From positions 12,228,984 to 12,292,983 of the forward strand of contig NZ_JAUSZI010000002.1 in assembly GCF_030817415.1 (NCBI RefSeq): a stretch of DNA of 64,000 nucleotides. The letters run 5' to 3'. The stretch is from Streptomyces umbrinus. Lineage in GTDB: Bacteria; Actinomycetota; Actinomycetes; Streptomycetales; Streptomycetaceae. Each line of letters opens with the position of its first letter. Position 1 is the first letter of the stretch. The position numbers were made by a program, and so were the translations under genes. Below, in pieces: positions 13,466 through 39,592 of this stretch. The notes below the pieces were generated by a model that did no database searches, was not told where the DNA came from, and worked only from the letters and a program-made list of their open reading frames with translations.

Positions 13466-14704
13466 TTACGCAAGGCTGAGGAAGGTGTCCCAGTGCGGTG
13501 CGGGTGCGCTATCCGTGCCGTAGGTGTGCAGGGCGAGAGCCGCTCCGGCGGCCCCGTCGAGGAGTTCCGGGGCATGGCCGTCCTGGTCGAGCGCGGTGAT
13601 CAGACGGTCGGCCAGGCGCGGCAACTCTGCAGTGATCTCGGTATTGCCCGTCTCGGTGGCCATCCGCCACGCGGCGTGAAGCAGTCCGGCCAGGCCGTGG
13701 CACAGCCCGATCTCGGGGACCTTGTCCAGTTGAAGCGGGTCGCGCAGGGTCGCGAGGATCGCGTTCTCGGCGGCCTGCACGCGCTCGGGGTCTTGGAGGG
13801 CGAGTCCGGCCAACTGCTGGGCGCGGGCGGTGCCGCTGACTCCGTAGCACCAGGAGGGGCGGGGGCGAAGGCCGGAATGGACGCGGTTGTCGGTCACCTG
13901 CTGCATCGAGATATACCCCGGCCACCACGGAGTGGTCTCGTCGCCGTGACACCATTGGTCGGTCCAGGTGCAGATCCGTTCCACAGCATCGGCCGTGCCG
14001 GGAACGCTGAGGTCGCGGAGCAGGGCCAGGGCCAGCACGGACAGGGCGGAGCCGATGCCGTGGGCGAGCCCGAAGTTCCCGTGCCCGCCAGGGTAGTCGG
14101 CGTGGGGCGTGCCCGTGGGTGCGACATTCATCCACCACGGCGGCAGTCCGGCCGGGTCGGGCAGGGGCTCGGTCAGGCGCACCAGGTAGGCCAGGACGTC
14201 CCGGGTGATCTCGTGATGGGGATGGCGGCTCAGGTGGTACGCGGCCAGCCCGGACAGGCCCTGGATCAGGTCGAACTCTTCCATTGGGGGCCGCTCGGCG
14301 CGGTCGATTCGCCGGTGGGCATCGGCCAGGCGGTTCCGGGTGACGGCACAGGTCGCCGTGTCCAGACGTTCCAGGGCGCGCAGGTACCGGCTCGATGCGC
14401 TGGCCGCTTGGTGTGTGATGAACGCCAGCGCGGGAGCGCCGAAATACAGGTTCGCGTTGGCCGCTGCGCTCACTTGGCCGTGCACGGCCGTGGTCAGCCA
14501 GGTGTGCGCGGTGTCCCAGTCGCCGCGGCCGGTCCGGGCTCGCTCGATGTGCAGAAGGGCGATGCCCGAGGCTCCTCCGGCGAGCGACTGTGGCCAGGCG
14601 CGAACGCCGTCGGGCCGGCCGCTGGGCCACGCGGTGCCCGGGTCGGCCAGCGCGCGGGCTATCTGGTCGGCGGTCGACAGCACGGCGGGGGCTGTCGTGG
14701 TCAT
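13466..14704 (-). CDS. lanC: LanC-like lanthionine cyclase
   Basis: The 412-aa LANC_like protein has seven-fold helical hairpin organisation. The zinc ligands C286 (WCYGVSG) and C335-H336 (LCHGLAG) are present, as is GHGNFGLAHG near residues 207-216. LanC enzymes bind zinc and catalyse Cys addition to dehydrated Ser/Thr, forming thioether rings. All metal ligands are intact. The start overlaps the lanB stop as ATGA, with GGAGG upstream. Confidence 0.92.
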   Translation of the reverse strand: MTTTAPAVLSTADQIARALADPGTAWPSGRPDGVRAWPQSLAGGASGIALLHIERARTGRGDWDTAHTWLTTAVHGQVSAAANANLYFGAPALAFITHQAASASSRYLRALERLDTATCAVTRNRLADAHRRIDRAERPPMEEFDLIQGLSGLAAYHLSRHPHHEITRDVLAYLVRLTEPLPDPAGLPPWWMNVAPTGTPHADYPGGHGNFGLAHGIGSALSVLALALLRDLSVPGTADAVERICTWTDQWCHGDETTPWWPGYISMQQVTDNRVHSGLRPRPSWCYGVSGTARAQQLAGLALQDPERVQAAENAILATLRDPLQLDKVPEIGLCHGLAGLLHAAWRMATETGNTEITAELPRLADRLITALDQDGHAPELLDGAAGAALALHTYGTDSAPAPHWDTFLSLA

Positions 14705-17604
14705 GGTGTCCTCCTTGCTCGCGCGGTCCGGCTCAGGGCGGCGGCTCTGGCCAGGTGCAGGTGGGTGCGCTCCTCGGGCAGTCCCGGCCCGCGCACGCGG
14801 ACGTGGTGGAGGTGCAGCAGGTCCGGCAGCAAGTCGTGGGGGTGCGTGGTCGTGTCCTTGAGTGCGTGGCGGTAGGCGCCCAGTGCCGTGCGGCGAGCGG
14901 ACCAGGCGGTGGTGACGTCCTCGTCCAGGCCTGAAGGTTCGGCGTTCACCAGGTCGACGGCTTGGCGGTAGACGGCGCGGGGCGGAGCGGCCTGGTCGGT
15001 GCGTGTGTGCTTGATGAGCCAGTTCATCGCCTCGGCGTCGTCGCCGAGCAGGCCGGTGGCGATGTCCACCATGCTCGCGGCGGTCATTGCACGGTCATCC
15101 GGTGCGTTCTTCCGGGCCTGGGCGGCGAGTTGGGCCAGCGCGGCGGTGGAGTCGGCGGCGAAGTACCGCTCGGCGGCGTCGATCGCTGCGGGGCCGCCGA
15201 ACCGTGCGGTCTCTGGGTGGTAGGTCTCCACGCTGGAGTGGGTGATCAGGCCGCTGTGCCGGAGCTGCTGGGTCCATTCGCCGATGCGCTCGATGGCGGA
15301 GCCGAGTGTGCCGGGTGCGCAGGTCAGACGAATGCGGAGGTGGTCGCCGGGGTCTGGGTAGCGGACGAACCACCATCGAGGGTCGCCCAGTTCGGTCAGC
15401 AGGGTCGGCAGGTGCCGGGCCAAAAGCGGGTTCTGCCGGTCGCGGTGTCCATGGAGTTGGAGGTAAATGCGGTTGCCGCAGCCGGGCAGGTGGCCGTGCT
15501 CGCGGGTGACGACGGGGCCCGCTGCCCGGACGGGGGCAACATTCTGTTCTGCGGTCAGGGGGATGACGACTTCGTGGGCGTGTCCGCTGGCCCAGCCCAG
15601 GTCTTGGGGTTCCGGTGCGGGGTGCAGTGTCACCTTGCCGTCGCGGTCCAGGTGGGTGCGCAGCAGGGCCCGGTGTGAGGGCTCCGTCAGGTCCAGGGCG
15701 ATGCGCTGGTCGGCCTCGCTCAGGTACACCCGTTCGGGCAGATGCACGTTGCGGCGCCATCGGGCCAGGGACTCGTCCCACTGCGGCCACGGTTCTGAAG
15801 CGGCGGGGAGGTCGTCTTTGGAGAGGAGCCAGCGGGCCGGGGACAGGATCGTTCGTCCGTAGCGCAGGGCGGGCAGGAACGGCAGGTTGGAGGCGGCGGT
15901 GCCCCACATGAATCCAGTGCACGGGATGGCCAGCGCGACGGGCGCCTCGGCCAGGAACCGGGCCATCGGATGGGTGTGGTAGCCCAGGTCTACGGCGTTC
16001 AGCAGCAACGTGTGCACCGGGCGCCGGTGGGAGAGCGAGACCAGGTGCAGCCGTTCGGCGTCGGCGGTCACCGCAAGGTCCGCCATGGGAATGAGGCTGG
16101 TATCCGAGCCCTGGTAGTCGCCGAGCGAGATCACCAACTCGGTTGTCTGCGGGGCGCGCGCGACGTTCTCAGCGGGTCCGGACAGCGGGGTAGAGCTGAT
16201 CTGCGCGACGAGCGCGCCCGGGTGCACTCCGGGCAGGCCTGCGTACACCCGAGCCATGCGGCGCCGATCAGCGTCGTCCAGGATGCCCAGGAAGCGGCCG
16301 GTTGTTGTTCCGGCCGAACGTGCCACCCCGACGACGTGCAGGGTGAACTTGCCCTGTTGCAGTGCCGGAACGCTCGCGGCGTCGATGCGGACCGTCACCT
16401 CGGTGCTCGGCTGGACGCAGTGGCCAGGATCTGTTGTGGCCAGGTTCTCAAGGGCGGCATCGTCGAGTTCGACTTCAAGGCGGCGCTGCATCCCGGCGGT
16501 GTGGGCGAGCTTGATGAGTCGGCTGTCGCGGTCGGGCAGCGGGGAGGGCGCCGGCGCGGTGGTGGACCCGAGGTACCCGGGTGGGTATCCGAGCGCGTCG
16601 ACGGCGTCCACGACGGGGACGAGCGCCCTTGGCCCGTACCGCGCAAGGAACCGGCTGTGCCACTCGGTCCAACCGGTCAGCGCCGCACGGGGCGCGAGAC
16701 GGGTGAGCGCCTTGGCTGCCGCTGCCGCCTCCCGGGCCACCGTCTCCGGGACGACCAGGTCCCAGTCCATCCGCAGGTCGAGCGCGGTTTTGGGGGCCTC
16801 GTGCACCTCTGCTGTCTCTGCGGGCACAAGATGCTGCGTGTGCATGCGGAGGACTGCGAGGGGATCGGTGGCCGTCATCGCCGGGCGGAGGCTGGTGAGT
16901 AGGAATCGTTGTCTGACCAGGCCCGCGAGCAGTTTTTCAATCGCGGTGGGCGGCGCGGTCGGGAAGCTGGTAAAGAGCTTTGCGGTGAGGTCGCTCCACA
17001 GAATCGGAGTCCGCGCGCTGTCCAGGGCTTCGCGGACCGGTCCGGTCACGCGTATCTGCACGTGCTCCGGAGCACCGTCGCGCGTGCCATGTGGGCGGTG
17101 CTCAATTGCCACGTAGCCGTCGCGCTCGATGACGAGGCTGGAGGCGAGCAGCATCAGATGGGGCCGCAGCCCACTGTGCTCTTCGAACCGGCCGATGAGG
17201 CTCGTGGTCCATGCCGCGTCGGGTCTGGCGGCTGACTGGTGCCTGGTGCCCCTGCGCAGCGCGGGGGCGGTGCCTATTCGCGCGGCCGCGACCCCGGCGA
17301 ACAGACCAAACGGAGTGGCACGCGTGTGGGCCCGCAGCAGATAGCGCAGCACGGACAGCACCGTGCGGCGTACAGCGGACTCCGGTAGCGGCTGGCCGGC
17401 ACAGACCTGGTCCACTCGATTCGCGAGGTCCGGGCTCGCAGCTTTGACGGCGGTCGCGAAGTCAGCTGCCTGCCAGGTCTGTTGCAGCCACGCCCGCCAC
17501 GATGCCGTGTTTGCGGTCTGGCCGGTCAACTCCGGCCAGACCACCTGACGGTCGGAGCTCAATGCGGCTGCCCGTATCACTGCTGCATCAACGTAGCGGT
17601 ACAC
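14701..17604 (-). CDS. lanB: LanB: class I lanthipeptide dehydratase, full length
   Basis: The 967-aa protein contains the N-terminal glutamyl-tRNA-dependent glutamylation domain (Lant_dehydr_N, about residues 20-650) and a C-terminal SpaB_C elimination domain (about 690-960) with WWFVRYPDPGDHLRIRLTCA and SVETYHPETARFGG. LanB dehydrates Ser/Thr of the precursor to Dha/Dhb using Glu-tRNA. The GTG at 17604 follows AGGAGGGG and was preferred over an ATG 60 bases upstream, which would fall in the hairpin after the precursor gene. The length is normal for an unsplit LanB. Confidence 0.93.
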   Translation of the reverse strand: MYRYVDAAVIRAAALSSDRQVVWPELTGQTANTASWRAWLQQTWQAADFATAVKAASPDLANRVDQVCAGQPLPESAVRRTVLSVLRYLLRAHTRATPFGLFAGVAAARIGTAPALRRGTRHQSAARPDAAWTTSLIGRFEEHSGLRPHLMLLASSLVIERDGYVAIEHRPHGTRDGAPEHVQIRVTGPVREALDSARTPILWSDLTAKLFTSFPTAPPTAIEKLLAGLVRQRFLLTSLRPAMTATDPLAVLRMHTQHLVPAETAEVHEAPKTALDLRMDWDLVVPETVAREAAAAAKALTRLAPRAALTGWTEWHSRFLARYGPRALVPVVDAVDALGYPPGYLGSTTAPAPSPLPDRDSRLIKLAHTAGMQRRLEVELDDAALENLATTDPGHCVQPSTEVTVRIDAASVPALQQGKFTLHVVGVARSAGTTTGRFLGILDDADRRRMARVYAGLPGVHPGALVAQISSTPLSGPAENVARAPQTTELVISLGDYQGSDTSLIPMADLAVTADAERLHLVSLSHRRPVHTLLLNAVDLGYHTHPMARFLAEAPVALAIPCTGFMWGTAASNLPFLPALRYGRTILSPARWLLSKDDLPAASEPWPQWDESLARWRRNVHLPERVYLSEADQRIALDLTEPSHRALLRTHLDRDGKVTLHPAPEPQDLGWASGHAHEVVIPLTAEQNVAPVRAAGPVVTREHGHLPGCGNRIYLQLHGHRDRQNPLLARHLPTLLTELGDPRWWFVRYPDPGDHLRIRLTCAPGTLGSAIERIGEWTQQLRHSGLITHSSVETYHPETARFGGPAAIDAAERYFAADSTAALAQLAAQARKNAPDDRAMTAASMVDIATGLLGDDAEAMNWLIKHTRTDQAAPPRAVYRQAVDLVNAEPSGLDEDVTTAWSARRTALGAYRHALKDTTTHPHDLLPDLLHLHHVRVRGPGLPEERTHLHLARAAALSRTARARRTP

Positions 17605-17624
17605 ACACCCCTCCTGTGGCGTGT

Positions 17625-17665
17625 GGTGCCCGGCCGCGCCCATGGGGCGGGCGCGGCCGGGCACC
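17625..17665 (-). terminator. 17-bp perfect hairpin between precursor and lanB
   Basis: Arms at 17625-17641 and 17649-17665 are perfectly complementary over 17 GC-rich bases around a 7-base loop. It lies 23 bases after the precursor stop and about 20 before the lanB start. Hairpins placed like this commonly act as partial terminators or mRNA stabilisers, so that far more precursor than enzyme is made. No U-tract follows, which is usual in Streptomyces. Confidence 0.8.
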
Positions 17666-17688: not shown

Positions 17689-17868
17689 CTACGGGCAGCT
17701 CGTGCACGCGGTCGCGCACGTCGAACCGCAGCCGTCGCTCGTCAGACGGATGAGCTGGTCCGCGGCGGGGCCGCTTTCGACGATCGTGATGTCCAGGTCG
17801 AAGTCGTCCTGTCCGGGCCCTTGGTGGGCGACCGGCTGAGTAACCGGGCTCTCCAGTTGAACGGTCAT
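17689..17868 (-). CDS. lanA: FxLD-family lanthipeptide precursor peptide (LanA)
   Basis: A 59-aa peptide, preceded by GAGGAGG and starting ATG. The leader contains the FxLD signature as FDLD at residues 23-26, within DDFDLDITIVES. The C-terminus is a Ser/Thr/Cys core (SDGCGSTCATACTSCP) with cysteines at 47, 51, 55 and 58 and Ser/Thr at 43, 44, 49, 50, 53, 56 and 57, enough for up to four thioether rings. It sits between the methyltransferase and lanB, with a strong hairpin behind it. FxLD lanthipeptides are a known class I group whose products are mostly uncharacterised. The cleavage site is not evident. Confidence 0.93.
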   Translation of the reverse strand: MTVQLESPVTQPVAHQGPGQDDFDLDITIVESGPAADQLIRLTSDGCGSTCATACTSCP

Positions 17869-17932: not shown

Positions 17933-19138
17933 TTAGTGCCAGGACACCGCGACGATGCCGTGGCGCTTCAGCACGGTGTCCTGGGGCAGAGGGGACGGAG
18001 CAGGACCCGGCAGGAACCTGATCGTTGCCGCTCCCCGGCGGCGGTGGTCCTGAGCCCAGCGCCGAAGCAGATTCAGGTATTCGTCCGCGAGGCTTTCGGC
18101 CTGCGGACCGTGAGCGACCACGCCGCTCTCGAAACCGCCGGTGTCCTCGTTTTCGCGGCGGATGCGGTAGGCGATGCTGTCCTCGCTGACCAGCGCCGGC
18201 ACACCGAGCAGGGCTGATGCGTCCACGAGCCCGCTCTCGACGACGTCCTTGGACGCGTGTAGCCGTGCCGCACTCGACAGCTGGAGCGTGAGGTACAGCT
18301 CCAGCTCGTCGGGCAGGTCGTAGGCCGCCCCCGACCAGCTCTCCATCTTCGGGGTGTCCAGAGCATGGTTCAGAGCCTCTGCGTTGAGGCGTACCCGCAC
18401 GTCGTCGGTCTGCACGGCGACGCCGTCCCGCAGCACCGCTTTGGACTCCTTGGCAGCTCCCTCACCCTGCATGGGCACGAAACGCGCCAGACGATAGGAG
18501 TGGCTGACCAGACCCTCACCATCACGGTCGAACGCGATCGACCGGGTCGTGCCGCGTACCGTCAGCGGGACGACGAGCCTGCCGTTCCCGGTGAGCCCAC
18601 TGATCCACGACGGGGGGATGTCCCACGCGGCTGCGGTGACGATGATCCGGTCGTACGGCGTTCCGTCAGGGACACCGGTCTCGCCGTCGGCGAGGACCGT
18701 CTTCACCTGGCCGTACCCGGAGTCGTCCAGGCACAGGCGGGCGCGGTCGACGATGTCACGGTCAATGTCGACCGTGGTGACGACTCCGTCGCTGCCTACG
18801 AGTTCCTGGATGAGCGCGGCGTTGTAGCCACCGGAACCGATCTCCAGGACCTTCATGCCAGGCTCGATGTTGGCCTGTTCCAGCATCACGGCCTGGAGAT
18901 GAGCGGCGGACATCACGCTGATGTCCAGGCCGTGCTCGTCCTTCTTGACCGGAACGGTGCGGTGGAGGTCGTAGGCGAGGTCCAGGGGCGCGTCCGGTGC
19001 GAACCGGTGCCGGGGCACTGCGGCGAAGGCAGCGGCGACCGGTTCGGACGTGATCGCGTCCTGGTCACGGAGTGCACGGACCATGTCCGCGCGTAGCGCG
19101 TCGGGATCGTGGACATGCGGTTCATCAATGGTAGTCAT
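17933..19138 (-). CDS. FxLD-system methyltransferase (protein isoaspartyl O-methyltransferase-like)
   Basis: The 401-aa protein has a PCMT-like N-terminal half: VPRHRFAP (residues 41-48), SAAH (77-80) and SAM motif I LEIGSGGYNA (98-107). A roughly 180-residue C-terminal domain is specific to the FxLD methyltransferase family. Related lanthipeptide enzymes methylate an Asp side chain, which then forms aspartimide or isoaspartate; the core contains one Asp (D46). The ATG at 19138 was chosen. A TTG at 19195 lengthens the protein by 19 residues but lacks a better ribosome site. It is the first gene of the cluster, 64 bases before the precursor. Confidence 0.88.
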   Translation of the reverse strand: MTTIDEPHVHDPDALRADMVRALRDQDAITSEPVAAAFAAVPRHRFAPDAPLDLAYDLHRTVPVKKDEHGLDISVMSAAHLQAVMLEQANIEPGMKVLEIGSGGYNAALIQELVGSDGVVTTVDIDRDIVDRARLCLDDSGYGQVKTVLADGETGVPDGTPYDRIIVTAAAWDIPPSWISGLTGNGRLVVPLTVRGTTRSIAFDRDGEGLVSHSYRLARFVPMQGEGAAKESKAVLRDGVAVQTDDVRVRLNAEALNHALDTPKMESWSGAAYDLPDELELYLTLQLSSAARLHASKDVVESGLVDASALLGVPALVSEDSIAYRIRRENEDTGGFESGVVAHGPQAESLADEYLNLLRRWAQDHRRRGAATIRFLPGPAPSPLPQDTVLKRHGIVAVSWH

Positions 19139-19428
19139 CCGATTACCCACTTCTGTTGGGAGGTTGGTGCTTGCGGCAGCCGGCTTGGTGGTCAAGCGAG
19201 GACGCTAGCCAGGCCGTCATCGCTGGGAGGTGGCTTTGCGCCGCCGGAGCGGCAGCACTCGGTGTTCGACTGAACAGCAGTTCCCTGGCTCGTCACTGCG
19301 TTCGCTCTCCTCTCGTTGAAGCAGTTCGGGTGGGGAGGAGCCAGCGTGAGGGGGTACGTGAGGCCCTCGCCTGGAGAACGCGCTATTTCCGGTTCTGATA
19401 CTCCCGATGGCCAACTCGGCACGGGACG

Positions 19429-19493
19429 CCCGGCGTGGAGGGTTGCCATGCCGTCCGAGGCGAACCGGTGGCCGCCTGGCCCTCCACGCCGGG
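19429..19493. terminator. 14-bp perfect inverted repeat between two operons
   Basis: Arms CCCGGCGTGGAGGG (19429-19442) and CCCTCCACGCCGGG (19480-19493) are exact reverse complements separated by 37 bases. The position, after the GntR/protease operon and before the lanthipeptide operon, fits a transcription terminator. An operator is also possible. The remaining bases of the 19139-19562 gap show no gene. Confidence 0.5.
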
Positions 19494-19562
19494 AGCAGGA
19501 GCTGCCTGGTGCCGACAGCCTCTTATGCGGCGGCCACCGGGCGGGAACCACAGTCAGGTCAG

Positions 19563-19736
19563 CTACGGGTACCGGCGCCGACGGTTAGAACCGCTGGCGC
19601 CATCAGCAGGGTTCTCGGCGTGACTCGCGGTAGGAAGGAGCGTCCTGTCCTTCCAGACCTCATTGACCACTTGTGTGCCGAAGGCCTCCACGGCGTGTGC
19701 GATCAGGGCAGCTTGCTTCTCGTACGTCTCGCGACC
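19563..19736 (-). pseudogene. C-terminal remnant of a second HELVH-type zinc peptidase gene
   Basis: A minus-strand frame reads RETYEKQAALIAHAVEAFGT then VVNEVWKDRTLLPTA and stops. It aligns without gaps to the C-terminus of the intact peptidase at 21406-22257 (REAYDRGARFFADVTAATGT, then INRVWKDTTLQPTA). Only the last 50-odd residues remain. Its first part overlaps the 3' end of the CPBP protease gene in another frame, so the protease's last codons were built from peptidase sequence. Confidence 0.8.
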
Positions 19737-20833
19737 TGCGCCGTGCGGCTCTCCAGCCAGGACCAGCCGACCCCGGCGAGCATGATCACGCACACTCCTA
19801 GGAGCGGCGGCATCCCGAACAGGATGTTGACGACGTTGTAGGTGGCGTGGGCCAGGATGAGCGGGATCACCCGGCGGTAGCGGTGATACAGCCACCCTGC
19901 CGTGATGCCCAACGGCAGTACGGCCAGGGCCGGCCAAAGCCCCAGGTAGAGGTGCGGGAGGGCACGCATCAATGCTGTGACGAGCAGGACCTCCCACAAG
20001 GGCCGGCGTGCGGCCGTCAGCACGGCCACGACCACTGCTGTCGCCAGTACCTCCTCCACGGTCGCGGACCACAGCGCGTGGGCCAGATGCGGCCCGAGGT
20101 CTGGGACCCCGGCCGCGGTCGCCTGATCGCCCTTGAGGACGGGGCCCGGCAGCCGCGCCAGCACCCCGATGAGGAACACCGACGCGCAGATCGCTGCCGC
20201 GTGGGCATAGAAGACCAGCTCCCCCTGAGCCTTCTGCGCACGCTCGGCCTTGGTGCGCTTGCGGAACGGCCGCACTGGGTGAGCCAGATTCAGCCGTTGG
20301 AGAGTGATCCCGCAGCGGGCGGTCACCTCGACACACAGCCAGACCCAGACCACCAGCTCGGCGAGATGCCCGGCGATCTGCGTGGAGGCACGGTCAGCGG
20401 TGAACTCACCGGCCTCGTCCGCCACGATCACGGCGAGCGACCCGACCAGCACCGTCACCTGCCGCAACGGCCACCTCGTGCCCTGCGGGCGAGGGCGGGT
20501 GAGGATCAGCCCCAGCAGCCAGACCTCGGCCCCTGCGAGGCCGACCAGCCGGCCGATCTCCTCAATGCGGAGGACCTCGAGGGGGACCTCTGCGCCGGAC
20601 TGCTGCACGACAGCCACGACGGCGCCGGCCAGATGAGGACCGCCCGCGAGAGCGAACAGCGTGAGTACCAGTACGTACGCGCGTGCCGCGCTCCAGGACA
20701 CGGGCGGTCGGCCGGCAACCGAGGACTGGCTTGTGGAGTCGGTGGTGCGAGCGCCGGTGGCCCCCGCATCCTGCTCTTCATGGGCCAGATCCGCCAGGTC
20801 AGGCCGGCGGGCCGCTGCTGCGTTGTCAGGCAT
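19703..20833 (-). CDS. CPBP/PrsW-like intramembrane metalloprotease
   Basis: The 376-aa protein has about eight membrane helices. The C-terminal half carries CPBP (CAAX protease and bacteriocin-processing) motifs: TVEEVLA, ALPHLYLG and LILAHATYNVV, supplying Glu-Glu, His and His/Asn of the membrane zinc site. CPBP enzymes cleave or sense membrane and prenylated peptides, and some act in bacteriocin immunity. The usual EExxxR arginine is absent. The ATG overlaps the upstream GntR gene by 8 bases. The last 11 or so codons run through the peptidase remnant. As last intact gene of the operon it may release a target controlled by the upstream GntR proteins; this is inference. Confidence 0.78.
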   Translation of the reverse strand: MPDNAAAARRPDLADLAHEEQDAGATGARTTDSTSQSSVAGRPPVSWSAARAYVLVLTLFALAGGPHLAGAVVAVVQQSGAEVPLEVLRIEEIGRLVGLAGAEVWLLGLILTRPRPQGTRWPLRQVTVLVGSLAVIVADEAGEFTADRASTQIAGHLAELVVWVWLCVEVTARCGITLQRLNLAHPVRPFRKRTKAERAQKAQGELVFYAHAAAICASVFLIGVLARLPGPVLKGDQATAAGVPDLGPHLAHALWSATVEEVLATAVVVAVLTAARRPLWEVLLVTALMRALPHLYLGLWPALAVLPLGITAGWLYHRYRRVIPLILAHATYNVVNILFGMPPLLGVCVIMLAGVGWSWLESRTAQVARRTRSKLP

Positions 20834-21413
20834 GGAACAACCCCCGCTCGCGGTCGGCGTCAGGGACCTGGCCGCAATCCGTGTGCGCGCGACCAGTGCC
20901 AGGCTGGGGACAGGCCTCGGATGGGATGAGCTGGGCGACCACAGTGCCGTAGCGGGCGATCGGGCCTGCGCTCGTGAGAATGCCCCCGTCCTTGAGCGGC
21001 TTGAGGGCCAGCGAGATGGTGGATCTTGCGACGCCGAACTCCTTACTCAAGGCGGTGATGCTGGGGAGGAGTTCACCAATGGGGTAGGTGCCGTCACTGA
21101 TCCGCTTACGGATGGTGTCTGCGATGTCGTTCTTGCGTGCGCGCTCCTGCCATTTCGAGGGCGTGGTGCCGCACGGGGTGACACCGCCTCCGCCGCCGGC
21201 TCGTGTGGCGACGAGACCTTCGTCCCGGAGCTGCTGAAGGGTCTTGCTGATCACGTGCGGGGTGGTCCCGAAACGCCGTGCTAGCTCACCGGATCGGCGG
21301 ACTGTGCCGGGGGACCAGGTGCCATCGGTGATCTCTTTGCGCAGGGTGTCGGCGAACTCCGTGCTGGGATGGACCCGCAGCCTGCGGAGTACGGAGTTGG
21401 GCTCGTCACGCAT
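20826..21413 (-). CDS. Double winged-helix GntR-type DNA-binding protein
   Basis: The 195-aa protein has two GntR winged helices in tandem: residues 16-80 (ADTLRKEITDGTWSPG...ELARRFGTTPHVISKTLQQL) and 95-162 (ADTIRKRISDGTYPIG...ALSKEFGVARSTISLALKPL). No ligand-binding domain is present. The last 13 residues (VPDADRERGLFHA) are not GntR sequence and match the C-terminus of the glutamine-synthetase-like protein in the same operon (VPDTERERGFLRA). The start overlaps the peptidase gene by 8 bases. The first wing is Gly-rich and less conserved. Confidence 0.85.
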   Translation of the reverse strand: MRDEPNSVLRRLRVHPSTEFADTLRKEITDGTWSPGTVRRSGELARRFGTTPHVISKTLQQLRDEGLVATRAGGGGGVTPCGTTPSKWQERARKNDIADTIRKRISDGTYPIGELLPSITALSKEFGVARSTISLALKPLKDGGILTSAGPIARYGTVVAQLIPSEACPQPGTGRAHTDCGQVPDADRERGLFHA

Positions 21414-22257
21414 GGTCGCGCCCTCGTTTCCGCTCCACGTCCGTGACGCGGCCGAGCCAGGCGTCGGCGTCGGTGAACTCCCCTGCGGTGGGCTGCAGAG
21501 TGGTGTCCTTCCAGACCCTGTTGATCGTGTCGGTTCCGGTTGCGGCGGTGACGTCGGCGAAGAAGCGGGCCCCCCGGTCGTACGCTTCGCGGCTCGGGCC
21601 GAGACGACCGATGCCGGGCAGGCCGTTGTGAAGCCGGTAGCGCCAGGACTTCGAGGCATCCCGGTAGTGATCGACCGGCGCGCCGAACAATCGGCCTGTG
21701 ATGTGACGATCCGCCCAGGCGGCGTGACCCTCGCGGAGGGTGGTGACACTACGGGGGTCGATACCTCGGAGGTGGGGCAAGAGTGTCTTCCACACGGTCC
21801 CTACAGCCGCAGCGAACTGCAGATGGTGGACCAGCTCATGAGCGACCACCTGGAGAAGGGAGGGCTCGTGGGCGAGGACTCCGGCGTGGCGCAGGGCCTT
21901 GGGCGCCATGAGGGTCTCGTACGCTCCGCCTTCGACCTCCATGCTCGTTGCGAGCTTCAGAGGCCAAGTCAGTGCACTGGTGACGCGAGCAGTCTCAAGC
22001 ATTGCTATGCGGACGACGCCGATGGGTCCGGGCCCCAGGTCCAGATCCGCGATGTCCCGGGCCAGGATGCGCTGCGCGTGTTGGACCTGCGCGTGCCGCC
22101 AGGCCTTCGGGGTCAGTAGGCGAAAGGAGACGTCCGAAGGGATGGACAGGCCGGTGGTCGTCTCCATGTCCGGGGCCACCCTGTGGAGGGTTTCGGAGAT
22201 CCGCTCGCGCAACTCGTCGTGGCGGCGGGTGTCGTCATGGACGGTAAAGCTGGTCAC
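21406..22257 (-). CDS. Zinc metallopeptidase with HELVH motif
   Basis: The 283-aa soluble protein carries the gluzincin-type zinc motif HELVH at residues 140-144 and a downstream EGH (176-178) that could supply the third ligand. No signal peptide or membrane helix is present, so it should be cytoplasmic unless attached by partners. No named family was recognised with certainty. Its C-terminal 50 residues recur as a remnant at 19563-19736. It starts with an ATGA overlap on the triple-GntR gene and ends overlapping the double-GntR gene. Confidence 0.78.
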   Translation of the reverse strand: MTSFTVHDDTRRHDELRERISETLHRVAPDMETTTGLSIPSDVSFRLLTPKAWRHAQVQHAQRILARDIADLDLGPGPIGVVRIAMLETARVTSALTWPLKLATSMEVEGGAYETLMAPKALRHAGVLAHEPSLLQVVAHELVHHLQFAAAVGTVWKTLLPHLRGIDPRSVTTLREGHAAWADRHITGRLFGAPVDHYRDASKSWRYRLHNGLPGIGRLGPSREAYDRGARFFADVTAATGTDTINRVWKDTTLQPTAGEFTDADAWLGRVTDVERKRGRDHA

Positions 22258-23039
22258 TGATGGTCCTGTTCAGAGATTGCCGCGGCGTCGCAAGACACCG
22301 GATCACGGGTGGCGTTCCTGACGGGGGCAGGCGGTTCGGAAGTCGGCCGGGCGGAGTACGACCGCCCCGGTCCGTTGGCGATGAGTCCTTCCGTCCTGAG
22401 CGGTCTGATTGCCTTCGAAATCGTGGTCAGCCCCACGTCGAACTCAGTGGCCAGTTCCTGAATGGCGGGCAGTCGGCTGCCGGGCGGATAGATGCCATCA
22501 CCCAGCCGCTCCCGGAGTGCCTGCCCGACGTACGCCACGGTCTTCGACGCTCTGCCGGACGGAGGAACCCCCGGCTGTCCCGGGTCGACGACGTAGGTAC
22601 CCAGTGTTCTGAACGAGGCGAGGAGCTTCTCCTGATGCAGTGGCTTCAGGGCCGTTCGGATGCTGGTGGGAGTCACCCCGAACTCGACGGCAAAGTGCCG
22701 CAGCGACGGCAGCCACGTCCTGACGGCATACGTGCCGTCACCGATCCGCGAACGGACGATCTGCTCGATCTCACTGATCCCGGTGACCGGCACGAGAGAC
22801 TGCGGGTCCGGAACCCGGGTTCCGCGGCGGCCCACCGATGAGTGGAGATCGCCGTTGTCCCTCAGCGGTCGGAGAGCACGGCTGACCACCCACTTGGGCA
22901 CACCAAATTCAACGGAGAGAGTCCGCTCCGAGGGCAGCTGAGTCCCGGGACCGTACGTGCCATCGGCCAGCCGTTTCCGGATGACCTTCCTGACCAGTTC
23001 GGGGGTCATGCGGCGGCGATGCGATGGAGTTTCAGGCAC
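22254..23039 (-). CDS. Triple winged-helix GntR-type DNA-binding protein
   Basis: The 261-aa protein is almost entirely three tandem GntR winged helices, about residues 11-80, 84-155 and 163-234. Each has the pattern (I/V/A)xxRLxDGxY..G..LPS...L..EFGV....V/I..AL.PL. Normal GntR regulators have one such domain plus an effector domain; none is present here. The GTG at 23039 overlaps the upstream stop (GTGCCTGA). It is favoured over an ATG at 23009 because the CPBP gene begins at the homologous position as ATGCCTGA behind a copied upstream tail. A three-domain protein could bind a long or repeated operator as a monomer. Confidence 0.85.
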   Translation of the reverse strand: MPETPSHRRRMTPELVRKVIRKRLADGTYGPGTQLPSERTLSVEFGVPKWVVSRALRPLRDNGDLHSSVGRRGTRVPDPQSLVPVTGISEIEQIVRSRIGDGTYAVRTWLPSLRHFAVEFGVTPTSIRTALKPLHQEKLLASFRTLGTYVVDPGQPGVPPSGRASKTVAYVGQALRERLGDGIYPPGSRLPAIQELATEFDVGLTTISKAIRPLRTEGLIANGPGRSYSARPTSEPPAPVRNATRDPVSCDAAAISEQDHQ

Positions 23040-24438
23040 GGAGGAACCCCCGTTCCCGTTCGGTATCCGGGACGCGATGGCGGTGCCAACGGATCTCGTG
23101 CCGGGCCGCACCGGCGTAGTGCCGCACCACGGCCGGCCCGAACGCTTCCAGCGCGGTCTTGCTGGAGCGGAAGTCGGCCAGGGCCTCGACGAGGTCGGCT
23201 GGTACGGGCAGGCCATCATCCGTCTGGTACGCATCACCGGTGGTCTGGGGCGGGAGGTCGGGCCGCGCTGTGAGGCCGTGGTGGATGGCGGCGAGGGCCG
23301 CGGCCAGCGCGAGGTAGGGGTTGGCGTCGGCGCCCGGGAGACGGACCTCCAGGTGTGCCCCGTCTCCGTGCCCGGTGACCCGGATCGCGCAACCGCGGTT
23401 GTCGCGGCCCCAGGTGAAATGAGTGGGAGCGAACGAGCGCGCCACGAACCGTTTGTAGGAGTTGATGTGGGGCGCGAGGAGCGGGGTCAGGTGCGGCAGG
23501 CCGGAGATCAGCCCGGCAATGGCCTGCCGCATCGTGTCGGGCAGATCCCCCTCGTGCGGAACGGCGAAGGCGTTGCGGCCGTCGCGCCACAGCGACAGGT
23601 GCAGGTGCAGACCGCTGCCCACCCCGGTCTGCGGGGCGGCCATGAACGTGGGCACCATCGCGTGACGCTCTGCCAGGTGCCGTACGGCGTGCTGGTACAC
23701 GGTGTACGCGTCACAGGCCGCCAGCGCCCCACCGTAGGGGAATGTGACCTCGACCTGGCCGGCAGCGCCCTCGCTCTTGACCGCCTCGACCGGCGTGCCG
23801 GCGCCCCGCAGGACCTCCGCCAGATCGTCGAAGAAGTCCGTCAGCGCCACGGGATGGTCGAGGGCGTAGTCGAGGTTGTGCGGCGCCACCGGTTCCAGAC
23901 CCTGGTACCCGGCCGCGTGTGCCTGCTGCGCGGTGCCCTGGTAGAGCATGAACTCGCTCTCCAGACCCACCTTTACGTCCAGGCCGAGTTTCGTGAGGCG
24001 GTCGAGCTGGGTGCGCAGCATGGCGCGGGGCGCGACGCCGATCGGAAGACCGCTGTGGTGGAAGGCGTCGGCGTGGATGAGAACGGCGCCTGGCATGTAC
24101 GGCACGCGGCGGATGGTGGCCAGGTCGGGGACGACGCCCATGTCCCCGAACCCCGTCTCCCAGCCGGTCAGTTCGAAGCCGTCCAGCGGCTCCATGTCGA
24201 CGTTGGTGGCCAGGATGTAGGCGCACATCTCCGCCCCGGCCCTCGCCCCTGATTCCGCCCCGTCCTGCGTCTGCTTCGTGATCGTCTGCAGGAAGCCGGG
24301 GGCGTCGAGGCGCTTGCCCTTCAGCTGGCCGAGCATGTTGGGGACGGCGAGCAGCACCGTGGTGACGGCACCGCTGTCCACCGCGGTCTTCAGGTCGTCG
24401 AGGGACAGGCATCCGGCGTGCTGGTTGTCCTCGCTCAT
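23032..24438 (-). CDS. Glutamine-synthetase-like gamma-glutamyl ligase (GlnA3/GlnA4 type)
   Basis: The 468-aa GS-fold ligase has ESE at residues 160-162, GSGLHLHLSL (274-283), HINSYKRF (324-331), WGRDNRGCAIRV (343-354) and LEVRLPGADANPYLALAA (363-380), so glutamate and ATP sites are present. The adenylylation-site region of true GlnA is missing. In Streptomyces, GlnA paralogues of this kind attach glutamate to polyamines or ethanolamine rather than ammonia. The adjacent, 1-base-overlapping permease gene supports an amine or amino acid substrate. The exact substrate cannot be read from sequence. Confidence 0.85.
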   Translation of the reverse strand: MSEDNQHAGCLSLDDLKTAVDSGAVTTVLLAVPNMLGQLKGKRLDAPGFLQTITKQTQDGAESGARAGAEMCAYILATNVDMEPLDGFELTGWETGFGDMGVVPDLATIRRVPYMPGAVLIHADAFHHSGLPIGVAPRAMLRTQLDRLTKLGLDVKVGLESEFMLYQGTAQQAHAAGYQGLEPVAPHNLDYALDHPVALTDFFDDLAEVLRGAGTPVEAVKSEGAAGQVEVTFPYGGALAACDAYTVYQHAVRHLAERHAMVPTFMAAPQTGVGSGLHLHLSLWRDGRNAFAVPHEGDLPDTMRQAIAGLISGLPHLTPLLAPHINSYKRFVARSFAPTHFTWGRDNRGCAIRVTGHGDGAHLEVRLPGADANPYLALAAALAAIHHGLTARPDLPPQTTGDAYQTDDGLPVPADLVEALADFRSSKTALEAFGPAVVRHYAGAARHEIRWHRHRVPDTERERGFLRA

Positions 24439-25919
24439 CACACGACCCCCTCGGCCACGGCGGCGTGTTCCGCCGAGTTCCCGAGCGGGGGGATCTTGTA
24501 GGAGCGTCGCCCCTTGGTGATCCACATGATCCATGCAAGGAGCAGCACGACGAGCAGGGTGACGCCCGAGTAGTTGAACGACTTGAAGGTGATCGGATAG
24601 GTCTGCGGCAGAACGAGTACCCCGGTCAGGACGATCACGTAGACCACGGAGATCCAGCCCAGTGGCTTGCTCCAGGCGCCGAGGGTCCAGGGGCCGGGCT
24701 CGAAGCGTTCAGGGAAGCGCAGCTTCAGGAAGACCGGGATCACGTAGGCGGGCGTGATACCGATGACGTTGATCGCGGTGACGGCGGCGTACGCGGTCGG
24801 CGACCACAGATTCGGCAGCGCCAGCACGAGCGCGACGCCCACGGACAGCCACACCGCGGCGATCGGGGTGCGGGTGCGGGAGCTCACCCGCCGCCAGGTC
24901 GCGGAGAACGGCAGAGCCCCGTCGCGGGAGAACGCGTACACCATGCGGCTGGACGCGGCGGTTTCCGCATTGCCGCAGAACAGCTGTGCCACGATCACAA
25001 CGACCAGCAGCACCTTGGCCATGCCCGTGCCCAGGACGTCGATGAAGATCTGCACCGGCGGCACGCCCGTGCTCGTGTTCAGGGTGCCGGCGTAGTCCTC
25101 GATGGCGAACAGCAGCCCGGCCAGGAGCACGAAACCGGCCACCCAGGAGTAGAGGACGGCGCGGACCATGCCCCGGGGGGCCGCCATCTGCGCCTGCTTG
25201 GTCTCCTCCGACAAGTGGGAAGAGGCGTCGTAGCCGCAGAACGTGTACGCGGCCACAAGGATTCCGAGCACCCCCCAGAGCGGGTGGTTGAAGCCCGTGC
25301 CGTTGACGAACTCCGTGAAGACGAAGCCCACGCTCCGGCGCTCCCCTGGGGCCAGGGTCAGTGCACCGACGATCAGTGCAACGCCGCCCAGCTGCCACCA
25401 CACGGAGATCGAGTTGAGGATGTTGACCAGGCGCACCCCGAACGAGTTCAGCGTGCCGAACAGCAGCAGGATCCCCGCGAAGATCAGGATGGTTGTCTCG
25501 GGTGTGGGCTGCATACCCCACTGCAGGTTGGCGAGCGCGCCGACAAATACGGCGCATCCGTACGCGATGGCAGCGATGGCGGCGACCAGGCCCAGGAGGT
25601 TGAGCCAGCCCGTGGCCCAGGCCCAGCGGGGGCCGCCGAGCCGGTGGGCCATGAAGTACAGGCCGCCGGAGGTGGGATAGGCGGAGACGACCTCGGCCAG
25701 ACACGCAGCGAGCAGCAGCGTCATGAAGCCGATGCCGACCCAGCCCCACATGATGACCGCAGGGCCGCCGGTGACCATGCCGAAGGCGAACATCGTCAGG
25801 GCGCCGGCGAGAATGCAGATGACGCTGAACGAGCTGGAGAAGTTTCCGAACTCGCCTATCTTGCGGGCCAGTTCGGGCTGGTAGCCGTGCGAACGCAGCG
25901 CGGCGTCATCGTCCAGCAT
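24438..25919 (-). CDS. APC-superfamily amino-acid/amine permease
   Basis: The 493-aa protein has about 12 membrane helices and APC signatures: GEFGNFSSSFSVICILAGAL in helix 1, then AEVVSAYPTSGGLYFMA, FCGYDASSHLSEETKQA and NAETAASSRMVYAFSRDGALP. It is expected to import an amino acid, polyamine or ethanolamine across the plasma membrane for the ligase encoded next (TGATG overlap). The ATG at 25919 follows a TAA by four bases, consistent with coupling to the small upstream ORF. GTG 25949 or ATG 25964 in the same frame are alternatives. Confidence 0.9.
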   Translation of the reverse strand: MLDDDAALRSHGYQPELARKIGEFGNFSSSFSVICILAGALTMFAFGMVTGGPAVIMWGWVGIGFMTLLLAACLAEVVSAYPTSGGLYFMAHRLGGPRWAWATGWLNLLGLVAAIAAIAYGCAVFVGALANLQWGMQPTPETTILIFAGILLLFGTLNSFGVRLVNILNSISVWWQLGGVALIVGALTLAPGERRSVGFVFTEFVNGTGFNHPLWGVLGILVAAYTFCGYDASSHLSEETKQAQMAAPRGMVRAVLYSWVAGFVLLAGLLFAIEDYAGTLNTSTGVPPVQIFIDVLGTGMAKVLLVVVIVAQLFCGNAETAASSRMVYAFSRDGALPFSATWRRVSSRTRTPIAAVWLSVGVALVLALPNLWSPTAYAAVTAINVIGITPAYVIPVFLKLRFPERFEPGPWTLGAWSKPLGWISVVYVIVLTGVLVLPQTYPITFKSFNYSGVTLLVVLLLAWIMWITKGRRSYKIPPLGNSAEHAAVAEGVV

Positions 25920-25923
25920 GGCG

Positions 25924-26121
25924 TTAGCGGGTCGTGAGTGGGACACCGGGCACCTCTGCGGCATAGGGAGGGGAACAGAGCGTGTAGGAACGGGTGACAG
26001 CGGTGAGGGCGAGGCCCTGGCCGAGCAATGTCAGGCCGCTGACCATGCTGAAGGCCACCGCGATATGGAGCGCGCGGTTGCTGAACCTGCCCGGCCGGTG
26101 CCGGACGTGTCGTAAGAACAA
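25924..26121 (-). CDS. Small single-span membrane peptide upstream of the permease
   Basis: The putative 65-aa product has one hydrophobic span (LHIAVAFSMVSGLTLLGQGL) behind a basic stretch. A TTG start lies nine bases after AGAGGA. The stop is four bases before the permease ATG, favouring a translated leader or small partner protein. No family was recognised, and the TTG start makes the call tentative. Confidence 0.4.
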   Translation of the reverse strand: MFLRHVRHRPGRFSNRALHIAVAFSMVSGLTLLGQGLALTAVTRSYTLCSPPYAAEVPGVPLTTR

Positions 26122-26200: not shown

Positions 26201-27202
26201 TCACCGGCGGCTCCGATCACCCATGGCTCTGTAGCGGGCAGAGCGGAACTCGTCCTGCCACCACGAGTAGCTCGGGGTGACCAGCGCCCACGGGGCGAGG
26301 GTCGCGTACGGGCCGATCGCCTCGAACACCTCGGCCGCGTTACCCACACCGGTGACGGTCAGCGCGTAGGCCAGGTAATTCAGGTCCAGCAGGGAGCGGG
26401 TATCGGGCTCGTCCTCTTCGGGCTGTGTCTGCTCGAACCAGTTGTAAAGAGCCTGCTCGGCGCAGCGGGCTGCGTCCTCACTGGACCAGTAGCCGATCAC
26501 GCCGGCGGTCTGGCGGCCCTGCAACTGCCTTCGGTAGGCCTCGACGTGGGCGTACAGCGGCAGCAGATGCAGCGCCGATCCCTCGGGGGCGGAGGAGACC
26601 ACCGCGTAAGCGAAATTGAAGCCCCCGCGGCCGCGGGCGTGAAACACGCCGAGCATCCGGTGATGGGCCTCGCGGCCGTACGGGTCCAGTCGGTTCGCCC
26701 GGTCCAGCAACTTCCACGGGCCCAGCGGCAGCGTGACGTCGAGCGGCCGGCTCCAGTTCACCTCGTTGTGCGGGACCGTCTCGTCGGTGTCGGTCTGTGC
26801 GAGGGCCAGCTGGCACACCGGCAGCACCGGATCCTTCGGCCACCAGTCTGCGGCGATCCGGCACGCGGCGTCGGCAGCATCGACAGCCCGCCTCAACGCA
26901 CGCCCGGACACACCGCCGCGGTGAGCGTTGAGGACACGCTCGGTGTTCACCCGGGCCCGCATCATCAGCGCATCCGAGTGGTTGGGCTCCTCCGCGCACC
27001 ATGCGTCGATCGCCCTGTTGTTGGCGGCAGCCCGCGCCAGAACCTGGCTGCGGGATGTGCGCAGTGTCCAGTCATGGCCCGTGTCTCGAAGCAGGCGCTT
27101 TGCTTCCAGCCACCGGTCCAGCTGGAGGTCTTCGCAGGCGAGACGCAGCTTTTCGTCCGGACCCGCCGGGTGGTCAATCAGGTTCATGTCATTGGAGGCC
27201 AT
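26201..27202 (-). CDS. Hypothetical helical protein
   Basis: The 333-aa protein starts MASNDMNLIDHPAG after GAGGGG. It is Trp/Arg-rich and helical, with TPR-like pairs (ACEDLQLDRWLEAKRLLRDT, LDRANRLDPYGREAHHRMLG). No signal peptide, membrane span or catalytic motif was found. It may be first in the permease/ligase operon, 79 bases ahead of the small membrane ORF. Function is unknown. Confidence 0.72.
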   Translation of the reverse strand: MASNDMNLIDHPAGPDEKLRLACEDLQLDRWLEAKRLLRDTGHDWTLRTSRSQVLARAAANNRAIDAWCAEEPNHSDALMMRARVNTERVLNAHRGGVSGRALRRAVDAADAACRIAADWWPKDPVLPVCQLALAQTDTDETVPHNEVNWSRPLDVTLPLGPWKLLDRANRLDPYGREAHHRMLGVFHARGRGGFNFAYAVVSSAPEGSALHLLPLYAHVEAYRRQLQGRQTAGVIGYWSSEDAARCAEQALYNWFEQTQPEEDEPDTRSLLDLNYLAYALTVTGVGNAAEVFEAIGPYATLAPWALVTPSYSWWQDEFRSARYRAMGDRSRR

Positions 27203-27364: not shown

Positions 27365-27853
27365 TCAGTGGAAGTTGGCAGCCGGGGAGGGGTATCTGAT
27401 CCGGACCTGGACGGTCTTCGTGTCCCCGTCGTCGGACGGTCTCCAGGTGGTCTCGCCGCCAAGCTCACGGATGTTCGCAAGTCCGGTGCTCTTCTGCGCG
27501 GTGATGGCCGTGAGGAAGTCGGGGAACGCAGGGCTCGGGTCCGTCACGGCGATCAACAGCGTCTCGTCTTCGGTGACGATCAGATCCAAGGCGAGCTGAC
27601 CTTCAGGGTGCTGCGGTCCGACGTGCTCAATCGCGTTTTTCATCAGCTCCACCACTACCTGGGTGGCGTTCTCTTGGTCTCCCGGCCAGGCCATCATTGC
27701 GAACCGCGTACGGGCGTGCAGGCGAGCGAGACGCACCGCCTCCGACCGGACGGAGAAGCGGCTGCTCCACTCCTGTGGACGCTCGACCCGGAGGAAGGAG
27801 GGGGCATTGGAGTCATCATCTGAGACCGGGGCTGGCGCCGCGGCGGATTCCAT
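27365..27853 (-). CDS. Anti-sigma-factor-like ATP-binding protein (HATPase_c)
   Basis: The 162-aa protein has a GHKL ATPase domain: N box VVVELMKNAIEHVGP with N73, G1 box D105 (AVTDPSPAF) and G2 box TGLANIREL. It resembles the RsbW/SpoIIAB-type serine kinases abundant in Streptomyces that bind sigma factors or anti-anti-sigma partners. About 40 disordered residues precede the domain. No sigma factor lies next to it, so its target is unknown. Confidence 0.85.
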   Translation of the reverse strand: MESAAAPAPVSDDDSNAPSFLRVERPQEWSSRFSVRSEAVRLARLHARTRFAMMAWPGDQENATQVVVELMKNAIEHVGPQHPEGQLALDLIVTEDETLLIAVTDPSPAFPDFLTAITAQKSTGLANIRELGGETTWRPSDDGDTKTVQVRIRYPSPAANFH

Positions 27854-30172: not shown

Positions 30173-31495
30173 ATGGGCGACACGCCGAGGACACTCCTGA
30201 AGTGGCTGTGTGATCGGGACAGGCTTCCCTACCGTCAGTTCGAGAAGAGGTTCACCGAGACGGGTGTTCGTCTCTTCGGGCGAGACCCCAGCAACCCAAC
30301 CCTTGGCGAGACACAGTTCCGGCGCTGGACAGGCGGCAAGCTCGTGACACTGCCCAGCCCCGAGAGCTGCCAGGTTCTTGAAGCCATGTGGCCGGGCTAC
30401 ACGGCGGAGCAACTGTTCGGGCCGCCGCTGGAGGTCGGTCCCCAGACACCCGTGTTTGACCTTGAAGAGCGAGTTCAGATGACTGCACGTGAAGCCCACG
30501 ACGGCGCCGACGCGACTGCCGCGGCGTCCATCTCCGACAACACCATCGACGAACTGCGTGACCAACTGGTGAGCCTCGCCCGCCGCTACCACGGCATGCC
30601 GGCGACACAGGCGTACAAGGCGGCCGACGACCTACGGCGAGAGGTCGAGCGACACCGTGACCGCACGCAGATTCCGGTCCAGCAGCAGACCCTGATGATC
30701 ATCAACGGACAGACGGCCGCGCTCCTCGCCGTTGCGGCTTTCGACCTGGGCTACTTCCCAAGCGCTCGAACCCTGGCCCGAGCCGCCGCTGTGTATGGCG
30801 AGAGCACGCGGTTCGTGCCCCTGCAGGCCTACGCCGACGGCACCCTGGCGTACATTGCCTACCACTCCGGCGAACCGAACGAGGCCCTGGCGAAGGCCCA
30901 ACGGGCGTTGTGCTACAGCGGCCTCGGCGACATCGCCCGGCGCCGTCTGCACGCCATCGTGGCCCGCGCGTACGCCTACCTAGGCGATGTCGCCTCGGCC
31001 CGGCACGCCATCCAGCTCTCCGAGGACGGCGGCCGGGACGTTCGCGACGACCTGCACGACGCCGTGGGCGGTGAATTCGGGTTCTCCGAGGAGCGACTGG
31101 CCATGTCCAACAGCACGACCGCACTGCTCATGGGCGATGCGGAGCAGGCCGAAGCGGAGGCTGGCCGTGCCCTCGTTCTCCTTGGAGAGAAGGCGCAGAG
31201 CGAGCAGTCCACCCACGTTCGCGCGGGCGCAGCCGCCGACCTCGCCCACGCTCGTCTCCTGTCCGACAACGTGGAGGGCGCGGCCGCCGCCCTGACACCG
31301 ATCTGGGAGGTGCCGCCCGAGGAGCGCAACACCGGGATCGTTGTGAGGGCGGCCCGTATCGGAAGGTACCTTGCCGCGCCGCGTTACCACGGCGCGCAGC
31401 TCCCCACGGAACTGCGCGAACAGATCGAGGATTTCACCCGGGTCTCCCCGCCGTACCGGCTCGGCTCGACGGTGCCTCTCTTGGCCATCGGCTAA
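30173..31495 (+). CDS. XRE/TPR-type regulatory protein
   Basis: The 440-aa protein starts MGDTPRTLLKWLCDRDRLPY after a GGGGGCGG box. The N-terminal 80 residues resemble a degenerate helix-turn-helix (LPYRQFEKRFTETGVRLFGR). The rest is TPR-like helical pairs with QAYADGTLAYIAYHSGEPNEALAKAQRAL and AIVARAYAYLGDVASARHAI. Such proteins are common Streptomyces regulators, sometimes responsive to small signals, but the target is unknown. It converges on the epimerase gene with four bases between stops. Confidence 0.78.
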   Translation: MGDTPRTLLKWLCDRDRLPYRQFEKRFTETGVRLFGRDPSNPTLGETQFRRWTGGKLVTLPSPESCQVLEAMWPGYTAEQLFGPPLEVGPQTPVFDLEERVQMTAREAHDGADATAAASISDNTIDELRDQLVSLARRYHGMPATQAYKAADDLRREVERHRDRTQIPVQQQTLMIINGQTAALLAVAAFDLGYFPSARTLARAAAVYGESTRFVPLQAYADGTLAYIAYHSGEPNEALAKAQRALCYSGLGDIARRRLHAIVARAYAYLGDVASARHAIQLSEDGGRDVRDDLHDAVGGEFGFSEERLAMSNSTTALLMGDAEQAEAEAGRALVLLGEKAQSEQSTHVRAGAAADLAHARLLSDNVEGAAAALTPIWEVPPEERNTGIVVRAARIGRYLAAPRYHGAQLPTELREQIEDFTRVSPPYRLGSTVPLLAIG

Positions 31496-31499
31496 CTGA

Positions 31500-32513: not shown

Positions 32514-32646
32514 ACGCCGATCCTGCCCCGTTCGGGCGGAGGAAGACAAAGCAGCCGCCGGTCAGTGGGCAGGCACAGGGTCCCGGAGCTTCTTGGCGAT
32601 GCCGTAGGAGCCCAGACGTCGCAGGCCTTCCGCGTGGGCGACGCGG

Positions 32647-34443: not shown

Positions 34444-34468
34444 CAACGGCCTCGTATCTGCAAGGTGT

Positions 34469-39546: not shown

Positions 39547-39592
39547 GATCTGTACTCCTTGCTCCTTGAGAGGTTCGTGACTCGGGGGATCT

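Follow-up and report, generated by a model that had tools for sequence, protein, structure and literature searches.

We analysed a stretch of 64,000 nucleotides of Streptomyces umbrinus (assembly GCF_030817415.1, contig NZ_JAUSZI010000002.1, positions 12,228,984 to 12,292,983; hereafter the window), in which six minus-strand genes run in one direction with overlaps of 1, 8, 4, 8 and 8 bases between neighbours when using the start codons given in Table 1. They encode an APC permease, a ligase of the glutamine synthetase (GS) family, a triple GntR array, a zincin peptidase, a double GntR array and a CPBP protein, and both this layout and the family calls, as made in the original prediction, were borne out, the latter by Pfam. 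The conserved start of the operon was found upstream of the six genes on the same strand, with HATP15 followed by c25, while a cluster of the FxLD lanthipeptide type lies downstream, also on the same strand. We propose to divide this arrangement into a head, which would usually consist of an ATPase-type gene followed by c25, the permease and the GS-family ligase and would end at the GS stop codon, and a series of tails, which in the window would be, in order of transcription, GntR3-zincin, GntR2, CPBP with a zincin remnant, and the FxLD cluster. Copies of the GS 3' end found elsewhere are here called scars, and numbers preceded by L denote individual loci.

Table 1. Features of the window, listed in the order of transcription of the minus strand.
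Feature	Position	Strand	Evidence and remarks
R2, divergent gene beside the head	30173..31495	+	No Pfam family
HATP15, HATPase-type protein, first gene of the co-directional run	27365..27853	-	HATPase_c 1e-05, just below cut-off
c25, all-helical head protein	26201..27202	-	No Pfam family; weakly TPR-like
APC permease (head)	24438..25964	-	AA_permease_2 1.7e-58
GS-family ligase (head; 3' end is the seam)	23032..24438	-	Gln-synt_C 1.6e-82; alternative ATG at 24441
Triple GntR array	22254..23039	-	Pfam GntR, 3 passing stretches; GTG start at 23039, 8 bases inside GS end; alternative ATG at 23009
Zincin (HELVH) peptidase	21406..22257	-	Zincin_2 1.2e-07
Scar 1, GS-like tail ending the zincin gene	21406..21450	-	HMM 15.5 bits, iE 0.016
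Double GntR array	20826..21413	-	Pfam GntR, 2 passing stretches; ATG start 8 bases inside scar 1
Scar 2, GS-like tail ending the double GntR gene	20825..20874	-	HMM iE 0.06
CPBP protein	19703..20833	-	Rce1-like 7e-11; ATG start 8 bases inside scar 2
Residual C-terminus of a second zincin, past CPBP	19614..19742	-	HMM iE 2e-12
FxLD-system methyltransferase	17933..19138	-	TIGR04364 530 bits, above the cut-off of 320
FxLD lanthipeptide precursor	17689..17868	-	FDLD leader motif
Lantibiotic dehydratase LanB	14701..17664	-	PF04738 1.3e-179, PF14028 6.9e-43
LanC-like cyclase	13466..14683	-	PF05147 1.7e-38
Stand-alone Lant_dehydr_C protein	12613..13443	-	PF14028 1.5e-23
Protein recurring in FxLD clusters (10 loci of the first cluster table)	11535..12629	-	No Pfam family
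HMM, hidden Markov model; iE, independent E-value.

Relatives of the locus were collected via the zincin as well as via c25, whereupon 26 Streptomyces loci, selected for the presence of GS, were counted. Among 392 genomes, the zincin profile (A2) for the most part recovered a Zincin_2 paralogue of housekeeping type (matched in 384 of 392 at E 1e-6), with the zincin subfamily of the window present in 14 of 392 at E 1e-40, and the c25 profile (A3) matched 370 of 392, revealing a wide family of which the best 26 listed matches, with E below 1e-105, were used. Nineteen of these were fetched, five had already been collected (the window, L020/L067, L066, L069 and L070), one lay inside the L088 stretch and one (G575:C20) was left out. 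The 26 counted loci exclude L099 (contig end cutting GS), L104, L067 (same strain as L020) and L033 (a partial copy), and they include two from one genome (L020 and L094), one that starts inside APC and has an incomplete GS (L035) and one in which GS and CPBP were predicted as a single frame, with the GS stop placed by hand from the HMM match (L096). APC preceded GS in all 26 loci, with a zincin between the two in L023; c25 was seen in 25 (the exception being L035) and was preceded by an ATPase-type gene in 21, and 14 loci had a divergent gene, either R2 or c18. L104, serving as a lower-scoring control, had c25 and APC followed by a conservon, without GS.

The tails, annotated at the level of a first look, were of several types. 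An FxLD lanthipeptide cluster followed the head in six loci (the window, L020, L023, L085, L095 and L102), ATP-grasp genes for a ribosomally synthesized and post-translationally modified peptide (RiPP) in two (L093, and L069 as called by clustering), radical SAM with a TIGR04188-like methyltransferase in two (L097, and L098 with its radical SAM called by similarity to L097), B12-radical SAM in one (L092) and radical SAM with an STM4013 hydrolase in one (L100), and RiPP-type maturases were thereby found behind the head in 12 of the 26 loci. The remaining tails consisted of TauD with a glycosyltransferase (L086, L091 and L101), of an exo-endo-phosphatase (L087, L094 and L103), of zincin, the small protein s65, CPBP or GntR only (L022, L035, L066 and L070), or were of other kinds, absent or made of CPBP only (L088, L089, L090 and L096).

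Closely related heads lost their similarity just past the GS stop codon. With a close pair defined as two heads aligning in one piece over a minimum of 4 kb and with a minimum identity of 80%, giving 12 pairs that are not independent but fall into five groups of related loci, the similarity ended between +1 and +199 bp past the GS stop in 11 of 12. The heads of L101 and L102 were 95% identical over 6.0 kb, with the alignment ending at +29/+25, and the corresponding ends were +1 for L086/L087, +83/+89 for L091/L092 and +50/+52 for L069/L088. Heads and tails also had different histories in several locus pairs: the FxLD tails of the window and L085 shared 86.1% identity over 5281 bp and their heads 70.6%, and the tails of L086 and L101 shared 92.5% over 5718 bp and their heads 75.1%. 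The FxLD match started 231 bp past GS in L085 and 3753 bp past GS in the window (at 19279), and the GntR-zincin-GntR-CPBP stretch is therefore interposed relative to L085. Moreover, 118 bp of the window (19429..19546, minus strand) were 80% identical to positions +210 to +323 of L093, a stretch past its s65 gene.

A residual GS 3' end was found ahead of some tails. Using an HMM of the last 32 GS residues in six frames over 60 sources, at a reporting level of 9.0 bits, we found four non-GS matches above that level. These were located past the zincin of L069 (iE 1.1e-07, with a DNA repeat of 129 bp at 87%), at the terminus of the L066 GntR array (iE 3.5e-06, with a DNA repeat of 211 bp at 78%) and at the two scars of the window. 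Scar 1, which was not recovered by a DNA scan for GS ends, gained further support from a match of 58 bp at 78% to the zincin-scar junction of L069 and from the second locus described below. Scar 2 had 50 bp that were 86% identical to the GS end of L093 (E 1.6e-10), a better match than that to its own GS (42 bp at 79%, reached in 0 of 2000 shuffles). In L066, the old GS end was still attached to a spacer and zincin as in L020, with 77% identity over 369 bp. The zincin remnant past CPBP in the window is what a degraded older tail would be expected to leave.

Some of the junctions also shared a start codon position: for 8 of the 26 loci, the start of the first tail frame lay 8 bases inside the GS end, as compared with 24 of 1039 for other predicted genes of those loci, a pool that includes the scarred genes of the window itself. 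The same position was used by two window cassettes behind scars, by three frames of a second locus in the same genome (see below) and by the first tail frame on three of four plasmids examined. The first genes starting in this manner belonged to unrelated families, including GntR arrays, s65, exo-endo-phosphatase, CPBP, a methyltransferase and a 69-residue frame, and such unrelated first tail genes hence start 8 bases inside a GS end or scar in about a third of the loci. A hairpin past GS was also considered as a general property of the seam and was rejected, with a mean z of -1.3 over the 26 loci and no single junction type; spacer folding gave strong hairpins in L091 (z -5.8) and L103 (-5.3), with values of -3.3 and -2.6 for the coupled junctions of L087 and L070.

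A search using positions 19560-23039 of the window also matched this genome at another place, 2 Mb from the window (L115, G000:C2:10186000-10205900), where GntR array genes lie in tandem and encode 3, 5, 2 and 3 winged-helix domains, the domain number differing between neighbouring genes. This second locus had no GS gene, with the GS profile matching there with its last 52 positions only, and it contained a 79-residue chimera that joins the start of a GntR protein to the end of GS. Its GS end was 92.0% identical to that of the window over 150 bp, and its two-domain GntR gene was 85% identical to the double GntR gene of the window over 611 bp, in a match beginning at 21451, which is at scar 1. 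The sequence of scar 1 thus lies behind a zincin in the window and behind a GntR array at the second locus. The 92.0% identical GS end together with this shared scar shows that pieces bounded by GS ends occur in two loci of the genome. Upstream of the second-locus arrays stands a conservon accompanied by GAF and acyl-CoA dehydrogenase genes, and blocks of cvnABCD, GAF and acyl-CoA dehydrogenase genes were also seen in front of zincin relatives in L018, L026, L029, L030, L034 and L079. According to two publications, the conservon cvn8 adjoins a lanthipeptide cluster (PMC8510531, PMC13343842). The zincin relatives and, in this genome, the GntR arrays bearing GS ends resemble that setting by being placed behind conservons, whereas the head of the window has no conservon genes.

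Both c25 and the zincin matched 11 plasmid records each. The best four of the 11 c25 records were examined, and all four were linear and carried c25-APC-GS. Behind these genes tgmABC was annotated on L106, and L105 resembled the layout of L106 without such annotation; an FxLD cluster was annotated on L107 (NBC_01462), and L108 had neither. Positions 30173-40000 of the window, comprising R2 and the genes beyond it, resembled the stretch flanking the head on plasmid NBC_01462, where TadE/TadG pilus genes, an NAD-dependent epimerase and a homologue of R2 are annotated (69% identical, and termed a DNA-binding protein there), and this part of the window, at the chromosome end, may be of plasmid origin. 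In the first cluster table, R2 recurred in 14 loci. An IS110-family transposase gene (PF01548; 28064-29284, plus strand) was inserted between two ATPase-type genes adjoining the head.

As for the individual head proteins, the GS-family ligase reached no NCBIfam equivalog cut-off, scoring 166.6 of the 650 bits required for gamma-glutamylputrescine synthetase (NF045547), and its nearest solved structure was 5dm3 (8.6e-82). It shares the GS fold with the S. coelicolor enzymes GlnA2, GlnA3 and GlnA4, which are gamma-glutamylpolyamine or gamma-glutamylethanolamide synthetases (PMC8998196, PMC5403932, PMC6529630), but differs from these types by staying below the curated cut-offs for polyamine and other GS equivalogs. 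Judging from family knowledge, permease and ligase are likely to import and gamma-glutamylate an amine. The AlphaFold2 model of c25 had a predicted local distance difference test (pLDDT) score of 89.9, and its Foldseek matches (best E 0.035) were for the most part TPR folds.

Among the tail proteins, the GntR arrays gave winged-helix matches only in Pfam, with no effector-binding C-terminal domain of the FadR, HutC or other types, and among the NCBIfam matches listed for them the matches fell in N-terminal parts of the profiles. The CPBP protein reached the Rce1-like gathering score (PF02517, 42.7 vs 22.4); of the EExxxR sequence, which we take to be the motif of CPBP/Rce1-like proteases, it has the EE without the R, and aligned relatives have ED. 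The zincin passed the gathering score of Zincin_2/DUF2342 (PF10103, 31.9 bits vs 25), covering only the C-terminal 44 residues of the profile (positions 301-344 of 344), and it stayed under the subfamily cut-offs of TIGR03624 (34.6 of 136 bits) and TIGR03883 (38.7 of 171 bits). Its AlphaFold2 model was confident (pLDDT 94.5), with 3cmn as the best fold match (E 3e-05), and its closest relative was P0001 of S. phaeochromogenes (88%), found outside the mapped loci. ATP-grasp-type genes were found by clustering near zincin relatives in L019, L069 and L076, and zincins in ATP-grasp loci also appear in a published study (PMC8939145); the zincin is perhaps a leader peptidase for neighbouring RiPPs. 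Two or three divergent tandem zincin genes adjoined D3, a family of 239-residue proteins with no Pfam match, in L075 and L077 (G341 and G338). Zincin, s65 and CPBP were adjacent in L017, L020, L022 and L035, the last three being head loci, and because the trio was found together in these loci it looks like a recurrent accessory tail in its own right. The s65 protein itself (L020:10821-11018 and relatives) is conserved, has 58-90 residues and no Pfam family, and was encoded either next to zincin and CPBP or immediately past GS.

The original prediction had viewed the six genes as one system, in which an imported or glutamylated compound would be sensed and two proteases would target a factor under the control of the GntR arrays. 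The permease-ligase pair indeed proved to be a real conserved unit and some sub-combinations recurred, but the six genes as one system were not borne out. None of the remaining 25 head loci that were mapped showed their order, with L070 coming nearest, having transposase-like genes between its zincin and a CPBP-related frame. The DNA search with 19560-23039 matched only the genome of origin among 100 genomes, a weak result because it missed divergent zincin copies known from other searches. Parts of the supposed system were also found apart, with zincins and, in this genome, GntR arrays following conservons and with CPBP coming directly past GS in L098, and scars of the seam mark the ends of genes within the six-gene run. 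Its overlapping genes, the GntR-zincin neighbours past GS in 3 of 26 head loci (the window, L066 and L070), the recurrent zincin-s65-CPBP trio and P0041, a 493-residue Streptomyces protein with GntR and Zincin_2 domains in a single chain, do speak for such a system, which we nevertheless regard as very improbable.

We consider instead, with a probability of roughly 0.7, that this is a composite locus of a conserved head with exchanged and stacked tails rather than one dedicated system. Several observations weigh against this conclusion. L096 and L098, the sole exception among the 12 close pairs, have a CPBP tail in common; 202 of 259 aligned head pairs ended before -30 and thus not at the seam, with 56 ending between -30 and +200 and one later, although only two of the 202 had at least 80% identity, both involving L035 with its internal GS gap. 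For the 25 pairs with matches in both head and tail, the tails were more alike in 12, equally alike in one and less alike in 12. Furthermore, the first tail gene was not at -8 in 18 of 26 loci, both HMM matches to the scars of the window were weak when taken alone, and no recombinase could be tied to the seam.

Part of this evidence would suit ordinary turnover of the genes downstream of a conserved operon, with the GS-end copies arising as chance tandem duplications by unequal crossing-over and nothing special about seam or head. The uncoupled majority of first tail genes, the varying length of the scars (50 to 211 bp) and the transposase-like genes in some tails agree with that explanation, but the 12 tails with RiPP-type maturases, the excess of starts at -8 and the scars, present in three genomes and also at a second locus, do not, and we find it unlikely. 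Somewhat less likely still is that everything belongs to one FxLD lanthipeptide cluster, with permease, ligase, zincin, CPBP and GntR serving as import, processing, immunity and control genes. The last tail of the window is indeed such a cluster, having a precursor with the FxLD leader motif and a Cys/Ser/Thr core together with LanB and LanC, in agreement with the FxLD/methyltransferase class I lanthipeptide clusters of Actinobacteria (families I 1-4) as given in PMC7268733. For an anti-phage role of the lanthipeptide, the title of a preprint among the references of PMC13343842 gave no more than a lead. FxLD clusters also stood behind six of the 26 heads, and of 18 genomes (14 with the zincin subfamily and four with weaker matches) 6 had an FxLD methyltransferase over cut-off no more than 15 kb from a zincin. 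Heads of this type, however, had other tails or none in 20 of 26 loci, FxLD clusters occurred near zincins without the head in L025, L075 and L078, and the head of L085 joins an FxLD cluster without zincin, GntR or CPBP.

A more far-reaching form of the composite-locus reading is that the GS 3' end is a dedicated insertion seam, at which cassettes made of a payload and a GS 3' end stack, ride plasmids and enter conservon loci, swapping RiPP clusters, peptidases and winged-helix arrays of varying number behind one head; we hold this to be possible, if rather doubtful. In the composite locus as we favour it, recombination at GS 3' ends, probably of the homologous kind and with the help of plasmids, would have added tails and stacked them. 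The differing scar lengths lean towards homologous rather than site-specific recombination. The head would supply transcription and coupled translation to the attached tail, and the locus may thus act as an expression site for RiPP and accessory genes.

Two known arrangements invite comparison. In Rhs and contact-dependent inhibition (CDI) loci, a conserved core is combined with swapped tails, and displaced orphan tails follow what is left of a core 3' end. The scars found here likewise are remnants of the core 3' end before a displaced tail; unlike in Rhs/CDI, the tails are frames of their own, starting 8 bases inside the GS end or past a spacer, with a joined frame in L096 alone, the cargo is biosynthetic and regulatory, and a permease-ligase operon forms the core. 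Integron cassette arrays have units stacked behind a fixed 5' part with a recurring sequence at their boundaries, as is also the case here, but the boundary in the present loci is the protein-coding GS end and its length varies. No integrase was noticed between the head and the FxLD cluster, in annotations made without a search aimed at integrases or attC. Among open-access papers, with subscription papers and preprints outside the scope, we found none joining glutamine synthetase, amino acid permease and RiPP clusters in Streptomyces.

Instead of one new signalling system, the locus shows how peptide gene clusters may be exchanged. If the composite nature of the locus is correct, it would explain gene combinations resembling new systems as stacked cassettes, and looking downstream of this GS clade would become a way to find unrecognised peptide clusters. 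It would also provide a route, open to testing, for Streptomyces to exchange entire RiPP pathways, whether lanthipeptide, ATP-grasp or radical SAM, behind one conserved unit.

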